From an uncultured Bacteroidota bacterium (GTDB lineage Bacteria; Bacteroidota; Bacteroidia; Chitinophagales; Chitinophagaceae): a DNA stretch of 64,000 nucleotides. Of this stretch, positions 13,347-20,697 are shown in pieces (position 1 is the first letter of the stretch; each line of letters begins with the position of its first letter). The translations under genes were made by a program, and so were the position numbers. The stretch is from NCBI GenBank assembly GCA_903824665.1, contig CAIJXT010000024.1:124001-188000 (forward strand), written 5' to 3'. The notes below the pieces were generated by a model. That model had not been told where the DNA came from. It worked only from the letters and a program-made list of their open reading frames with translations, and made no database searches.

Positions 13347-15164
13347 CTAATTGTGGGAATACGAAGTATCTGTAAGCGACTGCAAAAAGGCTATAATATC
13401 TCGTTTCTCTTTTGGCGATAAATTCAGTTTGTCACCCGGTAGTGTTTGGGTGGCAAGAACTATTCCACGGCCGGCACCGCCACCATCGTTATAAAAATCT
13501 ACTACTTCTTCGAGAGTACTAAAAACCCCGTTGTGCATGTAGGGTGCTGTTAGTGCAACGTTTCTAACGCCCGGAGTCTTGAACGCATATTTATGAAAAG
13601 GATGGCGGGTAAACAAAAACCTACCCTCGTCCTGATCAAGGTTGGAGATATTTCCAGCTGTTTCGGGTACAGCCAGCGTTTCTGATTCCGTCTCCTGGTA
13701 GAGCGGCGGTATGAGTCCATTGAATAGTGGAGCGTAATGGCAGGTGCCACACCGGGCCTTCCCCATAAACAGATTAAAGCCACTTCTTGCTGCGACTCCA
13801 AGGCTATCAGTCTGCCGCCGAATATAGCGGTCGAAAGGGGAATCGAAACTGATCAAAGTACGAATGTATGACGACATGGCATTAGCAATATTGAATTCAG
13901 ACACAGCTACCGGCTCTTTGGGGTAGGCTGCACGAAACATACCATGGTACACACTGTCTGCCTCCAGCCGGGGAATACTGTTCAGCAATGAACCATTCAT
14001 TTCATCTGCATTGTGCACTACCGCACTCAACTGATGCTCCAGGATACGAGCACGAGAATCGTAGAACTGTGCTGTTTGCAAAGCAGCATTCCATAAAGAG
14101 GGCGTATTGCGCAGCAACAGTTTTTTGCCTGTCATATCCGGACCTTTTTTTAGGCTATCTGAAAATGCCAGTTCCGGCTTATGACACGAGGCACAACTGC
14201 GACTGCCGTCTCCCGACAAGATCGGGTCGTAAAACAAACGCCTTCCCAACGCTGCCCTTGCAGGAGTGACTCTGAAATTGTCGTTGGGCGAAAAAAAATC
14301 GGGATTGAAAATATCCGCCGTAAAAAGGTTATCCGCGTATGGATTCAATGGATATACCTCGGTACCATCTACAAAACCCAGCGTACGGCTGCAGTAAGAC
14401 AGCCAGTCAGATATCGGATTGATATATTCCCTGATGAAGGTGAGTCGGTCGAACGTGTTGAAATTGTTATTTACAGTCAGGTAACGGTCTGCTTTGACAA
14501 ATAACAATGCACCTTTACGGCCAACAGAATCGGGTAACAATTTGCCGTAATAGCCTGCAACATGCCTGACGGAAGACAAAACAACACGGGTCTCCGGAAG
14601 GCTATGAAATGATAAGGGCGCATCGAAACCAGTGATACCCATAGATATCGTGCGATAGGTCGCTAAACGCAATGCCCTCCATAATCTGTCATCACTGAAG
14701 TAGTATTGCCGGTCCGGATCCGATCGAAGTTGTTTGATATTGCGGGACAGGAAAAGAATCTCTGCGGCAATTTCGTTCTGACGAACCGATGATGCAAAAA
14801 GCATTCGTTCCAGTACCTGCAACCCATGGGGTTTAAGTGAATCGGAAGGATTCTCTTCATCGATCTTCAATAAATCCGGACCATTGATTACACGCACTTT
14901 GTAAGTGGCAAAAATATCGACAAACATTTCCACCCTCTTGTAGTCGTTTCGGCATCGGTAAAAATGACCTATTAATGAATCCCTTCCACAATTGCGCACA
15001 GCAGCCGACCTGAACACAGAAAGTGACTTCAGCAACACATCAAGTTGCTGATCGTAATAAACAGCAGCCGACTGCTTGGGAACGCCGATTTCGCGGAAAG
15101 AAAGGCTCGCCACAAACGTCACGACCGTAAGAAAAACAAGTATCCACTTACTACTCTGCTTCAT
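13347..15164 (-). CDS. di-heme cytochrome c peroxidase, MauG/CcpA family, with N-terminal extension
   Basis: A 605-residue periplasmic protein. The C-terminal half (from about residue 290) is a normal di-heme peroxidase: ALGRRLFYDPILSGDGSRSC with heme site CASCH (324-328), RNTPSLWNAA, the second heme site CGTCH (472-476), and TPGVRNVALTAPYMHNG, which supplies a distal region. These enzymes reduce H2O2 or oxidise partner proteins. The N-terminal 280 residues after the signal anchor form a helical domain with no heme motif that I recognise, perhaps imelysin-like; such fusions occur in Bacteroidota. Divergent from the metallophosphoesterase gene across a 211-bp control region. Confidence 0.88.
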   Translation of the reverse strand: MKQSSKWILVFLTVVTFVASLSFREIGVPKQSAAVYYDQQLDVLLKSLSVFRSAAVRNCGRDSLIGHFYRCRNDYKRVEMFVDIFATYKVRVINGPDLLKIDEENPSDSLKPHGLQVLERMLFASSVRQNEIAAEILFLSRNIKQLRSDPDRQYYFSDDRLWRALRLATYRTISMGITGFDAPLSFHSLPETRVVLSSVRHVAGYYGKLLPDSVGRKGALLFVKADRYLTVNNNFNTFDRLTFIREYINPISDWLSYCSRTLGFVDGTEVYPLNPYADNLFTADIFNPDFFSPNDNFRVTPARAALGRRLFYDPILSGDGSRSCASCHKPELAFSDSLKKGPDMTGKKLLLRNTPSLWNAALQTAQFYDSRARILEHQLSAVVHNADEMNGSLLNSIPRLEADSVYHGMFRAAYPKEPVAVSEFNIANAMSSYIRTLISFDSPFDRYIRRQTDSLGVAARSGFNLFMGKARCGTCHYAPLFNGLIPPLYQETESETLAVPETAGNISNLDQDEGRFLFTRHPFHKYAFKTPGVRNVALTAPYMHNGVFSTLEEVVDFYNDGGGAGRGIVLATQTLPGDKLNLSPKEKRDIIAFLQSLTDTSYSHN

Positions 15165-15204: not shown

Positions 15205-15212
15205 CGAACATA
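15205..15212 (-). promoter_or_regulatory. candidate -7 element of the di-heme peroxidase gene
   Basis: On the minus strand this reads TATGTTCG, a variant of TAnnTTTG with C at the seventh base. The same TTCG ending occurs in the divergent phosphatase promoter (TACTTTCG). It lies 40 bp before the ATG. Confidence 0.3.
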
Positions 15213-15286: not shown

Positions 15287-15354
15287 GGTAACAAATCGGT
15301 AATTCAGGATACACAATGAGGTAACATGCCGGTAACGTGCCGAAACTACTTTCG
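15287..15354 (+). promoter_or_regulatory. phased GGTAA operator array and promoter of the metallophosphoesterase gene
   Basis: Four GGTAA(C/T) motifs start at 15287, 15298, 15320 and 15331, all on one 11-bp register (the unit at 15309 is degenerate). The last two 11-mers differ at one base (GGTAACATGCC, GGTAACGTGCC). A -7-like TACTTTCG follows at 15347-15354, 5 bp after the array, so the array occupies the -33 region. Direct repeats one helical turn apart over the -35 region are the layout bound by PhoB/OmpR-type activators. The gene served encodes a secreted phosphatase-like enzyme, which makes a phosphate-responsive operator plausible but unproven. Confidence 0.55.
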
Positions 15355-15375
15355 GGGCTTGAAAATCAAGCAATT

Positions 15376-18300
15376 ATGAAAAAAGCATTTCTACTCCTTT
15401 TTGTAGTGCTCGCGCAGATTGTCGCCGGGCTAACAGCACATGCTCAAACGCAGACCCTATTCGACTACGCATCACGGTGGCGCTATCTCGACAACGGCAG
15501 CGATCAGGGAACAACATGGAAAGACATTGGCTTCAATGATGCCTCATGGACCGACTCCACTGGCATTTTCGGGTATGGCGATCCATGGATCACAACCTGC
15601 ATTCGCGGATGCGCCACAGCTTGTGGCACAGGCTGCCCCACAAAATTCATTACCACCTATTTCCGCAAAAATTTCAATATAGCAGATGTCAACAAATTCT
15701 CAGGAGTCACGCTCAATGTGTGGCGGGATGATGGCATTGTTGTATATGTAAACGGAGTGCGTGTATGGGAAAGCAATATGACTACGGGCGCTGTAAACTA
15801 TCTCACTAATGCATTAACCATAATAGATGCACCCAACGAAAACACACCTGTTTCGACAACGATACCTATTTCTGCGTTTGTGAATGGCAACAACCTGATC
15901 GCTGTGGAAGTGCACCAGCGAGATGCCAACAGCTCCGATGTCACCTTCAACATGCAGGCACTTGGCGTCATCAAAACTTCATTTGTAACCTATGGGTCGC
16001 AATGGAAATACCTGACCGGTAGTGATCAGGGCACAACATGGAGAAATGGGACATTCAATGACGCGTCGTGGGCAACCGGTACCGGCCACATGGGATACGG
16101 TGAGTCTTGGACAAATACGTGTATCCCCGCCGGCCCAACATGTGTCAGTTACCCGCCAACCGGGCCTTGCAGTTCGTTTGCAGGCTGCAATAAATACCCG
16201 ACCATCTACTTCAGGAAAACACTTAACATCTCGGACCCTGCAGCCTATGACTCTATGCGATTTTCACTTATAGTTGACGATGGCGCAGTTGTATACGTAA
16301 ATGGAACTGAGGTATCACGTATCAATATGCCCGCCACTCCCGGTTTGAATCTGATGACCTATAATACACTGACGCCTACCCTGATGGCAGAAAACACAGC
16401 GGTGACCATATCGATACCGATTTCTGCATTTACAGCCGGTGATAATCAGATCGCTATTGAAGTGCACCAGAATGGAACCGGGGCCACATCAACCAGCTCT
16501 GATGCAGACTTCAATGCTCAGATCACAGGCGTGGTGCATGTTGTACCGGCCCTAGTGCGTGGACCATACCTGCAAATGGGCAACCAAACCTCTTTTATGG
16601 TACGCTGGCGTACCAATGTTGCCTGCAAATCGAAGCTGGAAGTGGGCACTGTTGCCGGCACCTTCCCACTAGTAGTTAATGATCCTGCAATGGTAACAGA
16701 ACATGAAATAACCGTCAGCGGCCTGAATCCGGAAACCAAATACTTTTACAGGTTCGGAACCAATCTGGAAACTTTGCAGGGCGACACAACGAACTTTTGT
16801 GTTACAGCACCTGCAACAGGGTCACATCGCAGGGTAACCATTGCAGCCTATGGCGACTGTGGGCAGAATTCTGCCGGTAACCAGACAGGCGCACTAAGTG
16901 CCTACCAAAACTTCCTTTCAACCATAGGCATCAAAGCAGCGGATCTGATGTTGCTGGTAGGTGACAATGCCTACAATAGCGGTACGGATGGCGAGTATCA
17001 GACCGGTTTCTTCAATGCCTACCAGGGAAACATTCTGAAGAATCACATGCTTTTCCCGGCGCCTGGCAACCATGACTATGAGAATGGCAGTTCAGCACGA
17101 CAAAATGACCACAATATCCCATACTACTCCATCTTCACAATGCCACAAAACGGTGAATCAGGAGGAGTACCATCGGGCACAGAGGCATACTATTCATACA
17201 ACTGGGGCGATGTACATGTCCTTTCGCTTGATTCTTATGGTCGCGAAGATGCAGGTACTACCCGCCTGTATGATACACTCGGGGCACAGGTGCAGTGGAT
17301 CAAGGCCGACCTGGCAGCCAACTCAAGAAAATGGGTAGTTGCGTATTGGCACCATCCTCCGTATACCATGGGCAGCCACAACTCAGACAATGAAGGTGAA
17401 CTGGTAAATATCAGACAGAATTTTATCCAAATTCTAGAGCGCATGGGTGTAGATGTGATCATTTGCGGACACAGCCATGACTATGAGCGATCTTACCTGA
17501 TGAAAGGGCACTTCGGTAACGAAGCATCTTTCAATACAGCAGCGCACGCTGTTGACAATTCCAGCGGAAAATACAATGGATCAGCTAACTCCTGCCCTTA
17601 TACTACCCAGTCAGGGATGGTGAATCATGGCACTGTATACGTGGTATCGGGCTCATCAGGAGCAAGCGGCGGTACACAGGGTGGATACCCGCACAATGCC
17701 CTGCCTTTCTCGCTCAACGATGGTGGTATGTTCTTCATGGACATCAACGACAACAGACTGGATGCAAAATTCATCCGTAAAGACAACAGCATCTACGACC
17801 AGTTCACGATAATGAAAGATGTAAAAGTGCAGGATACAGTAGAAGTGCTATATGGCGAAAGTGTAGCACTTTCAGCTTCGTGGTCTGGCAACTACTCATG
17901 GGCTCCCGGAGTTACAACACGGACTGTAACTGCAACCCCACTTGCCGACACCCTTATTGAGGTGAAAGACAATGCAACAAATACCTGTCTCACAGACAAA
18001 CATTACGTAGATGTGTTGTGCACCACTCCAGACATAACAACAAGTCCATCAGACATAACACGAATTGGCTGCGATGCAATGGTAACCTACGCGATAACCG
18101 ACACCGGCAGACCGGCAGCAGCCATCACTTATGCATTTACCGGAGCAACATCAGGAACCGGCAACGGAACCGGAAGCGGCACAACATTTAGCGTGGGTGT
18201 AACAACAGTAACGCTTACCGCAGCAAACGAATGCGGTAGTTCGAGCAAAAACTTCAGAATAACGATACAAGCGCTTCCTACAATGTATAATGTGACAGGT

Positions 18301-20697
18301 GGCGGTGGCTACTGCCCGGGTGGTACCGGCGTAGCGGTAGGCCTGAGCGGATCTCAGGTAAATGTAAACTACCAATTGTACAATGGAGCAACGGCAATAG
18401 GAACACCTGTTGCAGGCACCGGGTCTGCTATTTCTTTTGGCATAATGTCTGTTCAGGCCACCTATAGTGTATTGGCTACTGATGTAGTCACAAATTGCAC
18501 AAAAGGAATGAATGGCAATGTTACTGTGTTTGTACACCCCTTGCCACAGCCTTATACTGTTACCGGAACCGGCAATTACTGTTTAGGAGCATCGGGTTCT
18601 ACACTTGGACTCAGCGGCTCTCAGGCAGGCGTGAACTATCAGCTATACACCGGCACGACAGCCATGGGCAGCGCAATCACTGGCACAGGCGCTGCAATAT
18701 CCTTTGGCAGCTTCACCACTGTAGGCACCTATAGTGCGGTTGCCACCAACACTACGACAACCTGTGTAAACAACATGAACGGCAGCACAACAGTGAGCAT
18801 TAATCCATTGCCTGCACAACACAACGTTACTGGCGGTGGCAACTATTGCATGGGGGGTACCGGAGTAGTAACAGGGCTTGATAACTCTGCAATCGGATTC
18901 AGCTACCAATTATACAATGGCACTACACCTACAGGCAGCGTGGTTGCCGGCACTGGTGCAGCAATCAGCTTCGGAGCACAAACCGCTTCGGCTGTATATA
19001 CTGCCAAAGCAACAAACGATGCTACAGGCTGTGTTGCCATTATGAATGGCAATGCAACAGTTGCAATTGATCCATTACCATCCGCTTTCAACATAACTGG
19101 CGGCGGCAACTATTGCGCAACAGGAACGGGAGTAGCCATTGGACTGGACGGGGCAATAAGCGGAACCAACTACCAGTTGTATAACGGATCGACAACCGCT
19201 GGTACAGCAGTAGCCGGTACAGGATCTTCAATTACCTTCGGGCTGCAGACATCAGCGGGAACCTACAGTGTACTGGCAACAATCGCAGCCACCGGATGTA
19301 CCAATGCAATGTCTGGCTCAGCGGCTGTAGGCATATATGCCCTGCCAACACCATTCTCGGTAACCGGTGGTGGTGAATACTGTAATGGCGGATCGGGAGT
19401 GACAATTGGTCTTGGCGGGTCTAACCTGGGCACTACATACCAACTACACAACGGAACAACACCTGTAGGAGCGGCTCTGGCCGGGTCTGGTGCACCGCTC
19501 AGCTTCGGGCTGCAGACAACTGCTGGTGTATACACAGTAACGGCTGTGAACACAACGACTACATGTACCAATTCCATGCCCGGTAGCGCTCTGGTTGTCA
19601 TCAATCCAGTGGTCACACCAGCTATCCACTTGTCGGCCACGCCGGGATCAGATGTATGCACGGGCACCACAGTAGCATACACTGGCGCTGCCACCAACGG
19701 CGGTATTGCCCCCGGATACGAATGGAGCGTTAACGGTACAGTTGTATCAACAGGCGCTCCGTTACATAGTTACACCCCTGCAAACAACGACGTCGTGATA
19801 CTGAAACTGACAAGCAACTATGCATGTGTAACCCAAACTAATGCCTTTGACACCATTACAATGTCTGTGCGTCCATGGGTAATGCCTACAGCAAACATTA
19901 CAATAACACCAAATGACACACTGTGCGAAGGCACACCGGTAACGCTCTCTGCTACAATGACCAATGGCGGATCAGCGCCAGTTGCAAAATGGATTGTTAA
20001 CTCTTCCGTAGTCAGTACCGCAAATAGCTACTCCTACACACCGGCCGACGGCGATGGTATTGTTTTGAACCTGGCAAGTAACGCACCGTGCCGCCTTGCA
20101 GAAAATGTGTACAGCAATATCATTAATATGCGTGTAAATGATGCCTATGTACCAGTTGTCAATCTGGTAGCTGTGCCGGGCACCTACATAGCAAAAGGAC
20201 AGGTCGTGGTATTCACAGCATATGTTTCTGATGCAGGATCTGCGCCAACGTACAAATGGTCGATCAACAACACCGTAGTTTCCGGTGCCACCTCTGCTAC
20301 TTTCGTCACCTCTGCGCTATCCAACAATGACTCTGTGAGTTGCTTGGTACGTGGCTCCGGTGGTTGCGGTGAAAATGGATTCAACAGCGTTATCATGAAC
20401 GTAGAATCTGTAGGTGTTGCAACAACTGGCAACCGTAATGGTATAATTGTAACACCCAACCCAACTGCTGGTTCGGTACTCATAACTGGCAATATAGGAT
20501 CATCGATCGATGGTAATATTACATTGAAAGTAACTAATATACTGGGCCAGGAAGTATTAGCAGCAACTGGGAAAACCAATGGAGGTAACATCAGCGAACA
20601 ATTGACTCTGGGAAATAATCTCGCCGATGGTATGTACCTGCTGACTGTAACTACAACTTCAGGTGCGTATGTCTTTCATATCGTATTGAAAAAGTAA
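15376..20697 (+). CDS. secreted metallophosphoesterase (purple acid phosphatase-like) with five tandem repeats and T9SS sorting domain
   Basis: A 1773-residue T9SS cargo. Order: signal peptide (1-24); two related beta-sandwich modules (about 25-205 and 208-395, each starting with a WRYLDNGSDQGTTW-type strand); a fibronectin-like domain (about 397-485); the calcineurin-like phosphoesterase domain with metal ligands YGDCG (D494), VGDNAY, GNHD (564-567), WHHPPY and GHSHDYER (698-705), the purple acid phosphatase set; five 89-residue repeats (about 967-1411); two or three Ig-like modules; and a C-terminal sorting domain starting VTPNPTAGSVLITG. It should hydrolyse phosphoesters outside the cell. 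The ATG at 15376 gives a clean signal peptide. A strong terminator follows. Confidence 0.9.
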   Translation: MKKAFLLLFVVLAQIVAGLTAHAQTQTLFDYASRWRYLDNGSDQGTTWKDIGFNDASWTDSTGIFGYGDPWITTCIRGCATACGTGCPTKFITTYFRKNFNIADVNKFSGVTLNVWRDDGIVVYVNGVRVWESNMTTGAVNYLTNALTIIDAPNENTPVSTTIPISAFVNGNNLIAVEVHQRDANSSDVTFNMQALGVIKTSFVTYGSQWKYLTGSDQGTTWRNGTFNDASWATGTGHMGYGESWTNTCIPAGPTCVSYPPTGPCSSFAGCNKYPTIYFRKTLNISDPAAYDSMRFSLIVDDGAVVYVNGTEVSRINMPATPGLNLMTYNTLTPTLMAENTAVTISIPISAFTAGDNQIAIEVHQNGTGATSTSSDADFNAQITGVVHVVPALVRGPYLQMGNQTSFMVRWRTNVACKSKLEVGTVAGTFPLVVNDPAMVTEHEITVSGLNPETKYFYRFGTNLETLQGDTTNFCVTAPATGSHRRVTIAAYGDCGQNSAGNQTGALSAYQNFLSTIGIKAADLMLLVGDNAYNSGTDGEYQTGFFNAYQGNILKNHMLFPAPGNHDYENGSSARQNDHNIPYYSIFTMPQNGESGGVPSGTEAYYSYNWGDVHVLSLDSYGREDAGTTRLYDTLGAQVQWIKADLAANSRKWVVAYWHHPPYTMGSHNSDNEGELVNIRQNFIQILERMGVDVIICGHSHDYERSYLMKGHFGNEASFNTAAHAVDNSSGKYNGSANSCPYTTQSGMVNHGTVYVVSGSSGASGGTQGGYPHNALPFSLNDGGMFFMDINDNRLDAKFIRKDNSIYDQFTIMKDVKVQDTVEVLYGESVALSASWSGNYSWAPGVTTRTVTATPLADTLIEVKDNATNTCLTDKHYVDVLCTTPDITTSPSDITRIGCDAMVTYAITDTGRPAAAITYAFTGATSGTGNGTGSGTTFSVGVTTVTLTAANECGSSSKNFRITIQALPTMYNVTGGGGYCPGGTGVAVGLSGSQVNVNYQLYNGATAIGTPVAGTGSAISFGIMSVQATYSVLATDVVTNCTKGMNGNVTVFVHPLPQPYTVTGTGNYCLGASGSTLGLSGSQAGVNYQLYTGTTAMGSAITGTGAAISFGSFTTVGTYSAVATNTTTTCVNNMNGSTTVSINPLPAQHNVTGGGNYCMGGTGVVTGLDNSAIGFSYQLYNGTTPTGSVVAGTGAAISFGAQTASAVYTAKATNDATGCVAIMNGNATVAIDPLPSAFNITGGGNYCATGTGVAIGLDGAISGTNYQLYNGSTTAGTAVAGTGSSITFGLQTSAGTYSVLATIAATGCTNAMSGSAAVGIYALPTPFSVTGGGEYCNGGSGVTIGLGGSNLGTTYQLHNGTTPVGAALAGSGAPLSFGLQTTAGVYTVTAVNTTTTCTNSMPGSALVVINPVVTPAIHLSATPGSDVCTGTTVAYTGAATNGGIAPGYEWSVNGTVVSTGAPLHSYTPANNDVVILKLTSNYACVTQTNAFDTITMSVRPWVMPTANITITPNDTLCEGTPVTLSATMTNGGSAPVAKWIVNSSVVSTANSYSYTPADGDGIVLNLASNAPCRLAENVYSNIINMRVNDAYVPVVNLVAVPGTYIAKGQVVVFTAYVSDAGSAPTYKWSINNTVVSGATSATFVTSALSNNDSVSCLVRGSGGCGENGFNSVIMNVESVGVATTGNRNGIIVTPNPTAGSVLITGNIGSSIDGNITLKVTNILGQEVLAATGKTNGGNISEQLTLGNNLADGMYLLTVTTTSGAYVFHIVLKK
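18274..19609 (+). repeat. five tandem 267-bp repeats within the metallophosphoesterase gene
   Basis: Five consecutive units of about 89 residues, each with LPxxxxVTGGGxYC, a YQLYNGxT strand, a GTGxxISFG turn and a C-terminal TYSVxAT segment with a second conserved Cys. The two Cys per unit could form a disulphide. Units are clearly related but diverged at the DNA level, so recent slippage is not evident. Confidence 0.9.

Follow-up and report, generated by a model that had tools for sequence, protein, structure and literature searches.

A probable 11-bp-phased, Pho-type operator before a secreted phosphatase gene in an uncultured Chitinophagaceae bacterium and its relatives

Introduction

The Pho box of Escherichia coli consists of 11-nucleotide direct repeats, on which the OmpR-family regulator PhoB binds head to tail and contacts sigma to control the phosphate regulon; its core is CTGTCAT, and the core differs between species (PMC4415409). 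In Bacteroides fragilis, PhoB of the PhoRB system binds a 512-bp fragment of the pst promoter, and pstC expression depends on it (PMC3547664); no site sequence was found in that paper, and the words "motif", "consensus" and "repeat" do not occur in its main text. In Flavobacterium johnsoniae, phosphate depletion induces a MauG protein encoded next to PhoX, T9SS proteins, and TonB transporters followed by lipoproteins, one such pair lying in the PhoBR cluster, in which OprP showed no induction by phosphate depletion (PMC8115612). No operator is named there, and "motif", "promoter" and "pho box" are absent from the main text of PMC8115612. The Riemerella anatipestifer regulator PhoP, which is up in phosphate starvation, has a DAP-seq motif that was linked to virulence and redox (PMC9603813).

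Here we analyze a phased repeat array before a phosphatase gene of an uncultured Chitinophagaceae bacterium. The array is very probably an operator with an 11-bp phase that is also used by pst and further phosphate genes; a PhoB-type (OmpR-family) response regulator likely binds it and would switch on phosphatase expression under phosphate scarcity. This reading was derived from sequence comparisons.

Results

A phased array before the phosphatase gene

The window, i.e., the whole stretch of 64,000 nucleotides that was analyzed (positions 124,001 to 188,000 of contig CAIJXT010000024.1), contains 93 GGTAA pentamers on the forward and 98 on the reverse strand. Four on the forward strand start at 15287, 15298, 15320 and 15331, at intervals of 11, 22 and 11 bp, which reproduces the exact 11-bp phase that an earlier note on this DNA had read from the letters. 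Counted from the -7 element, the forward-strand units are GGTAACGTGCC, the promoter-proximal one (15331..15341, offset 16 bp), GGTAACATGCC over the -33 region (15320..15330, offset 27), a degenerate in-phase unit, ATACACAATGA (15309..15319, offset 38), GGTAATTCAGG (15298..15308, offset 49) and GGTAACAAATC (15287..15297, offset 60). The degenerate unit at 15309 occupies the 22-bp gap between GGTAA sites as a fifth unit. GGTAACATGCC and GGTAACGTGCC differ at a single base, as the earlier note had it, and its placing of the array 5 bp short of a -7-like element agrees with our coordinates: the array ends at 15341, and the -7 element TACTTTCG (15347..15354, forward strand; consensus TAnnTTTG), for which an octamer was picked by eye at the equivalent place in orthologues, starts at 15347, leaving a gap of five bases.

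Among 300 simulated windows of equal size (first-order Markov, both strands considered), none placed four GGTAA in a common 11-bp phase within 60 bp, and one placed three or more. The exact pattern GGTAAN6GGTAA matched twice in the whole window, both times within the phosphatase array. Rfam gave no match between 14900 and 15700.

The phosphatase gene (15376..20697, forward strand) encodes a predicted secreted, purple-acid-phosphatase-like protein of 1773 aa with a C-terminal T9SS domain; the assignment in the earlier note holds, since Pur_ac_phosph_N (PF16656), Metallophos (PF00149) and the T9SS sorting domain (PF18962) all exceed their curated cut-offs. Its ATG at 15376 is probably a better start than the GTG at 15337, with which the longer listed reading frame begins inside the array, because the ATG lies 21 bp past the -7 element and appears to open a signal-peptide-like stretch. 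The -7 consensus TAnnTTTG spans -12 to -5 in Flavobacterium psychrophilum (PMC9723704), which would place the transcription start near 15359, leave a leader of 17 bases and put the two proximal units at -39 to -18.

The divergent neighbour (13347..15164, reverse strand; PF03150) is a MauG/di-haem cytochrome c peroxidase-like gene and the conserved partner of the phosphatase gene. Its candidate -7 element is TATGTTCG (15205..15212, reverse strand), and TATGTTCG or TAAGTTCG was found in six of the seven promoters inspected; no forward array lies in register before this gene. The MauG-like and purple acid phosphatase genes form a conserved pair that is divergent in this genus and co-directional in the genome of another genus, G035, in Dyadobacter, Hufsiella and others; on contig C4 of this genome, a MauG gene and a phytase-like gene form another such divergent pair. 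In two relatives (L091, L092) a second 11-bp-phased, GGTAAC-like cluster is present at offsets 69, 80 and 91 before the -7 element of the phosphatase gene, in phosphatase orientation, two bases off the main register and near the MauG -7 element; it may serve the divergent gene.

Conservation at orthologous promoters

A search of 60 genomes (own included) yielded 22 with some match to the phosphatase region, and the promoters of eight were examined: the own promoter, six from the same genus and one from another genus (G035). Their -7 elements were picked by eye: six read TACTTTCG or TACTTTTG, and G016 and G035 have weaker octamers that were chosen with the array in view. With the -7 elements so defined, a site with at least four of six matches to GGTAAC starts 16 bp before the -7 element in all eight close orthologues, and the highest mean numbers of GGTAAC matches occur at offsets 16, 27, 49, 60 and 38, all of them equal to 16 + 11k. 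Distances of 11, 22 or 33 bp between sites numbered 52, whereas 2000 mononucleotide shuffles gave 3.1 on average and never more than 14. When the last 68 bp of the eight promoters were aligned, all 12 invariant columns fell in TAA cores or in the -7 octamer. The 11-bp repeats at a fixed register, with the unit at offset 27 over the -33 region, bear out the claim that the array stands in place of the -33 region.

In more distant relatives, outside the genus and G035, an array before the phosphatase gene is mostly undetected. Among 18 named loci (L098-L115), a site with a score of at least 9 just before the phosphatase or a MauG-led operon was found in two, L098 and L111; L098 is the same assembly as G029, a same-genus genome, and in L111 (Dyadobacter sp. 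CY261) the site precedes MauG. Two of the ten MauG starts in this set (L108, L112) are doubtful. Five full-length relatives (L099-L103) displayed no site with a score of at least 9 near the gene start.

Literal patterns and a promoter model in the genus

The earlier note had proposed to search the genome for GGTAAC-N5-GGTAAC and to see whether matches lie before phosphate genes. The only exact match in the genome is the phosphatase array itself, without enrichment, and with up to one mismatch there were 30 matches versus 48 in a reversed control, so that the literal pattern was rejected as too narrow. A pattern including the -7 element (GGTAAN6GGTAAN11TANNTTYG, up to three mismatches) gave 78 matches in the genome versus 106 in the reversed control, showed no enrichment either, and was rejected as too loose.

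Two sequence models were applied, whose E-values are rough. Only the best 150 candidates per genome were scored with the first model in the genus, and 52 and 21 with the second model in the order and the class, respectively; for this reason missing matches are no evidence of absence. The first model, R1, uses sequence only, was built from the eight orthologous promoters alone and was run on 35 genomes of the genus. Among the best 150 candidates per genome it returned 22 non-training matches at E ≤ 0.05, about 1.75 being expected. Four further sites at this threshold are in the own genome (best 150 candidates): two on contig C30, before a TonB-dependent receptor gene and before the lipoprotein gene that follows it, one before a T9SS protein gene on C34 and one before a second receptor gene on C15. 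A weaker own match (E 2.7) precedes the MauG gene on C4; the phytase-like gene transcribed away from it is preceded by a separate array. Among the genes preceded by R1 matches in relatives are receptor genes paired with T9SS or lipoprotein genes and SdiA-regulated/phytase-like genes; in one relative the match lies some 360 bp upstream of a gene for an S1/P1 nuclease.

In the loci around matches and pst operons, a matrix derived from the eight promoters found a site within 60 bp of 82 of 399 ORF starts (seven of the 82 are training promoters), and 30 column-shuffled matrices reached a mean of 0.57 and a maximum of three; because the loci were picked for matches and pst operons, the column shuffles test the motif and not the choice of loci. 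Some matches precede genes without a known phosphate role (a lipoate ligase, a glyoxalase-like gene and several without a Pfam family).

Several side observations concern these loci. Before the lipoate ligase-like gene (L162, 4593-4638) two phased GGTAA units occur with no -7 element at the expected place, and probably reflect chance or a different use. In L159, L161 and L164-L172 a TonB-dependent receptor gene is followed by a gene for a secreted lipoprotein or T9SS protein, often each with its own array; the scanned proteins have no Pfam family or a sorting tail only, and the pairs resemble the phosphate-induced FII pair of receptor and lipoprotein in F. johnsoniae. An extra array on the opposite strand is located just before the receptor gene on C30 (G000:C30:112679-112716, reverse strand), with no gene in promoter position, and similar back-to-back arrays are found on G007:C74 and G013:C84.

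Arrays before the pst operon

The own pst operon on contig C12 comprises pstS, pstC, pstA and pstB and lacks phoU. PstC, PstA and PstB score above their NCBIfam cut-offs; PstS reaches 165.7 versus a cut-off of 206.6 and passes PF12849. The array before this operon, ATTAAC-ACCCG-ATTAAT-ACTGC-CGTAAC, shares the register, lies 11 bp before the start codon of pstS and scores 15.0; it is absent from the R1 matches among the best 150 candidates and was first found as a three-mismatch match of the pattern with the -7 element.

PhoU is present in 27 of the 35 genus genomes, and eight, the own included, gave no match. The own genome, whose stated completeness is 99.42%, has pstSCAB but no phoU at the pst locus (L252, G000:C12:13000-24000); PhoU was discarded as a pst marker in this genome, where it has no match although pstSCAB is present. 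Weaker R1 matches (E 0.08 to 0.68) in four relatives (G031, G014, G005, G001) coincide with the head of the pst operon, some 5.2 kb upstream of phoU and on the phoU strand.

The 27 PhoU loci minus three in which the contig ends before the operon start (L209, L225, L227) leave 24, to which the own locus was added. In 24 of these 25 pst loci the best position of the eight-promoter matrix on the operon strand fronts the pst operon, and in L224 this position ranks second. The array lies 11-32 bp before the first ORF of at least 90 codons in 20 pst loci; in four others it lies 219-491 bp before pstS, and the leading porin ORF is not intact in the ORF calls. In L210 and L221 the matrix settles on the array out of register; by eye, an in-phase unit is seen 16 bp before CAATTTTG. 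Of the 18 control strands, two have maxima of 12.6 and 12.3 with this matrix; for pst arrays at the low end (9.5 to 13) it is therefore position and not score that is convincing.

Consensus and breadth in the order and class

Forty sites align without gaps (nTTAAnATTGnGGTAATATTGnGGTAACATTnnnnnnnTACTTTTG), and their majority consensus is nTTAAnATTGnGGTAATATTGnGGTAACATT-n7-TACTTTTG, from which each unit reads nKTAAY; the core GGTAAC given in the earlier note has to be replaced accordingly. The form nnTAAY occurs in 85% of the 40 sites at offset 16, in 90% at offset 27 and in 75% at offset 38, and the upstream units outside the model stay in phase (offset 49, 47%; offset 60, which is among the five best in the eight orthologues, 28%). 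Off phase, the mean is about 1% and the maximum 12.5% (offset 24). Strict nnTAAY at the 16-bp offset is found in 34/40 sites; since these sites had been picked up by a model with this register, independence is limited to the units at offsets 49 and 60. Some units among the array sites have the form nTTAACA.

The second model, R2, was built from the 40 aligned sites. Its nine matches in the own genome (E ≤ 0.05) are not independent evidence, as those of R1 are, because seven belong to the training set and the eighth has a near copy there. In the order, 47 of 119 genomes (own included) have a match at E ≤ 0.05 among the best 52 candidates per genome, about six being expected. Twenty-nine loci outside the genus were kept (L274-L302), and four of them show clear phosphate or Pho genes: PstS (L289, PF12849), PstS followed in L287 by what was read by eye as PstC, a porin of the pst type recognized by eye with no Pfam match (L277), and an OmpR-type response regulator followed by a gene that by eye is kinase-like (L297). 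By eye, several of the other loci resemble receptor genes.

In the class, a match at E ≤ 0.002 among the best 21 candidates per genome was obtained in 28 of 294 other genomes (29/295 with the own), about 0.6 being expected; most class genomes sampled have none at this threshold among those candidates. Twenty-five class loci, all from other orders, were examined, and in nine the gene that follows is a phosphate gene according to Pfam: six of the PstS type (PF12849), the largest single gene group, and one each of a Na/Pi cotransporter (PF02690), PhoU_div (DUF47, PF01865) and Porin_O_P (PF07396). Four precede receptor-type outer-membrane proteins. The remaining 12 are unassigned and were kept in the count (L304, L306, L310, L314, L316-L318, L321-L325); L304, L321, L322 and L324 have a poor in-register matrix score, L316, L318 and L322 no clear ORF, and L314 and L321 were outside the Pfam scan and still are part of the 25. 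Arrays before pst in the own genome and its relatives, and before PstS-type, Na/Pi cotransporter, PhoU_div and Porin_O_P genes in other orders, favor the Pho-type operator that the earlier note had suggested, by the kind of comparison that it had called for.

Candidate regulator

The own genome encodes six OmpR-type regulators (PF00486), none of which reaches an NCBIfam PhoB cut-off. With the Bacteroides PhoB model (cut-off 270), L118 scores highest among them, at 203.7. Under TIGR02154 (cut-off 296.2), L117 scores 215.3 versus 209.8 for L118, and the best model of L117 is a heavy-metal one. The kinase beside L118 matches best to the PnpS and PhoR models, all below cut-off. In another genome (G129) an R2 match (E 0.006) lies 99 bp before a response regulator gene, and L118 is the closest of the own six to that regulator (49% identical). 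Since it is the best of the six to the Bacteroides PhoB model, has a PnpS/PhoR-like kinase and a relative with an upstream array in G129, the L118 regulator, together with its kinase on contig C3, is the likeliest candidate for the cognate system. No array was found in the roughly 3.2-kb loci of the six regulators, L118 included (best score 4.5), and autoregulation of any of them was rejected on this ground.

Discussion

Phase, register, conservation among close relatives, occurrence before phosphate genes as well, and additional in-phase units outside the three-unit model are established at the level of sequence, and we infer PhoB binding and induction at low phosphate. Mechanistically, response-regulator subunits would bind in tandem, head to tail, over about -39 to -18, take the place of the sigma contacts at -33 and recruit sigma, and further units upstream would strengthen the binding. 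The regulator would activate rather than repress, with scarce phosphate as its signal.

It is unlikely that the array belongs to another OmpR-family regulator (RprY-type or copper-type) that responds to a stimulus other than phosphate, with the phosphate genes forming only a part of its regulon. The absence of a regulator past the PhoB cut-off among the own six would suit such a regulator, as would the many matches before TonB-dependent receptors and genes of unknown function, and the motif of Riemerella PhoP, found around 579 of 583 peaks, resembles that of ArcA (PMC9603813). However, PstS is the largest group in other orders (6/25 loci) and is joined there by a Na/Pi cotransporter, PhoU_div and Porin_O_P, and the receptor-lipoprotein and MauG classes are themselves phosphate-induced in F. 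johnsoniae (PMC8115612).

That the array might be a repressor site, with a regulator on the -33 region blocking transcription, is quite improbable. The array does overlap the -33 region, and repression at some sites may occur, because 34 of 50 direct targets of Riemerella PhoP are higher in a phoP deletion (PMC9603813). The array, however, takes the place of a -33 element, and the constant 16 bp between its proximal unit and the -7 element would suit an activator that touches sigma; moreover, deletion of phoB in B. fragilis brings pstC expression down to a trace (PMC3547664), and extracellular enzymes are among the commonest activated genes of Pho regulons (reviewed in PMC4415409).

LytTR-type regulators read repeats about 22 bp apart, and the array in the window has one gap of this size. 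Nevertheless, such another reader of direct repeats, or DNA bending alone, is a very improbable cause of the phase, since the units recur every 11 bp at 16, 27, 38, 49 and 60 with a TAAY core and an off-phase mean of 1%, and bending alone requires no common sequence core. Chance repetition in an A+T-rich intergenic region, with which the lack of genome-wide enrichment of the literal pattern would agree, has a negligible probability and is already refuted by conservation, given none of 300 simulated windows, the register in 8/8 orthologues, the 12/12 invariant columns in TAA cores or the -7 octamer, and the arrays common to phosphate genes in other orders.

For the phosphate-responsive activator site that we prefer, a wider reading is slightly favored: a single code across the Bacteroidia, consisting of three to five nKTAAY-N5 units placed 16 bp from TAnnTTTG, may mark a scavenging regulon that jointly comprises pst, Pit-type and Na/Pi transporters, phosphatase/MauG pairs and functionally uncharacterized pairs of TonB receptor with lipoprotein or T9SS protein, and that in part of this genus would operate with pstSCAB in the absence of PhoU. 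A readable operator would make it possible to predict the phosphate regulon from the DNA, in uncultured members too, and would link the uncharacterized pairs of TonB receptor and lipoprotein to phosphate. A further question is how phosphate is sensed in a species that has pstSCAB and the operator, yet no PhoU match.

Comparison with known systems

Like the Pho box of E. coli, the array has at least two direct repeat units of 11 bp, a phase that recurs in the orthologues and in the 40 sites; it stands in place of the -35/-33 region with a constant spacing to the -10/-7 element (8/8 orthologues with -7 elements picked by eye, and 34/40 sites), and it precedes pst and other phosphate genes (the own pst operon, 24 genus pst loci and 9/25 class loci). 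Unlike the E. coli Pho box, it does not have the core CTGTCAT (PMC4415409): its consensus is nKTAAY with an ATTG-like spacer, there are typically at least three units, and the register is set to the Bacteroidota -7 element TAnnTTTG.

The earlier note knew of no described box of this kind for the lineage. This stands for the phased array, as a phosphate operator of such architecture for Bacteroidota was not found in the open-licence literature, which misses most subscription papers; it does not stand for the unit, to which the motif of Riemerella PhoP is close. PMC9603813 describes a single motif around 579 of the 583 peaks; an 11-bp phased array, a -7 register or a link to pst was not found there, and its main text does not contain "direct repeat", "pho box" or "pstS". 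The motif belongs to a Bacteroidota regulator, named PhoP, that is up in phosphate starvation, and its most conserved part, TTTAACA, is close to the CTTAACATT and GTTAATATT units of our arrays (PMC9603813; compared without the logo). The Riemerella PhoP motif is the nearest described relative of the phased operator and may be regarded as the strongest outside support for it.
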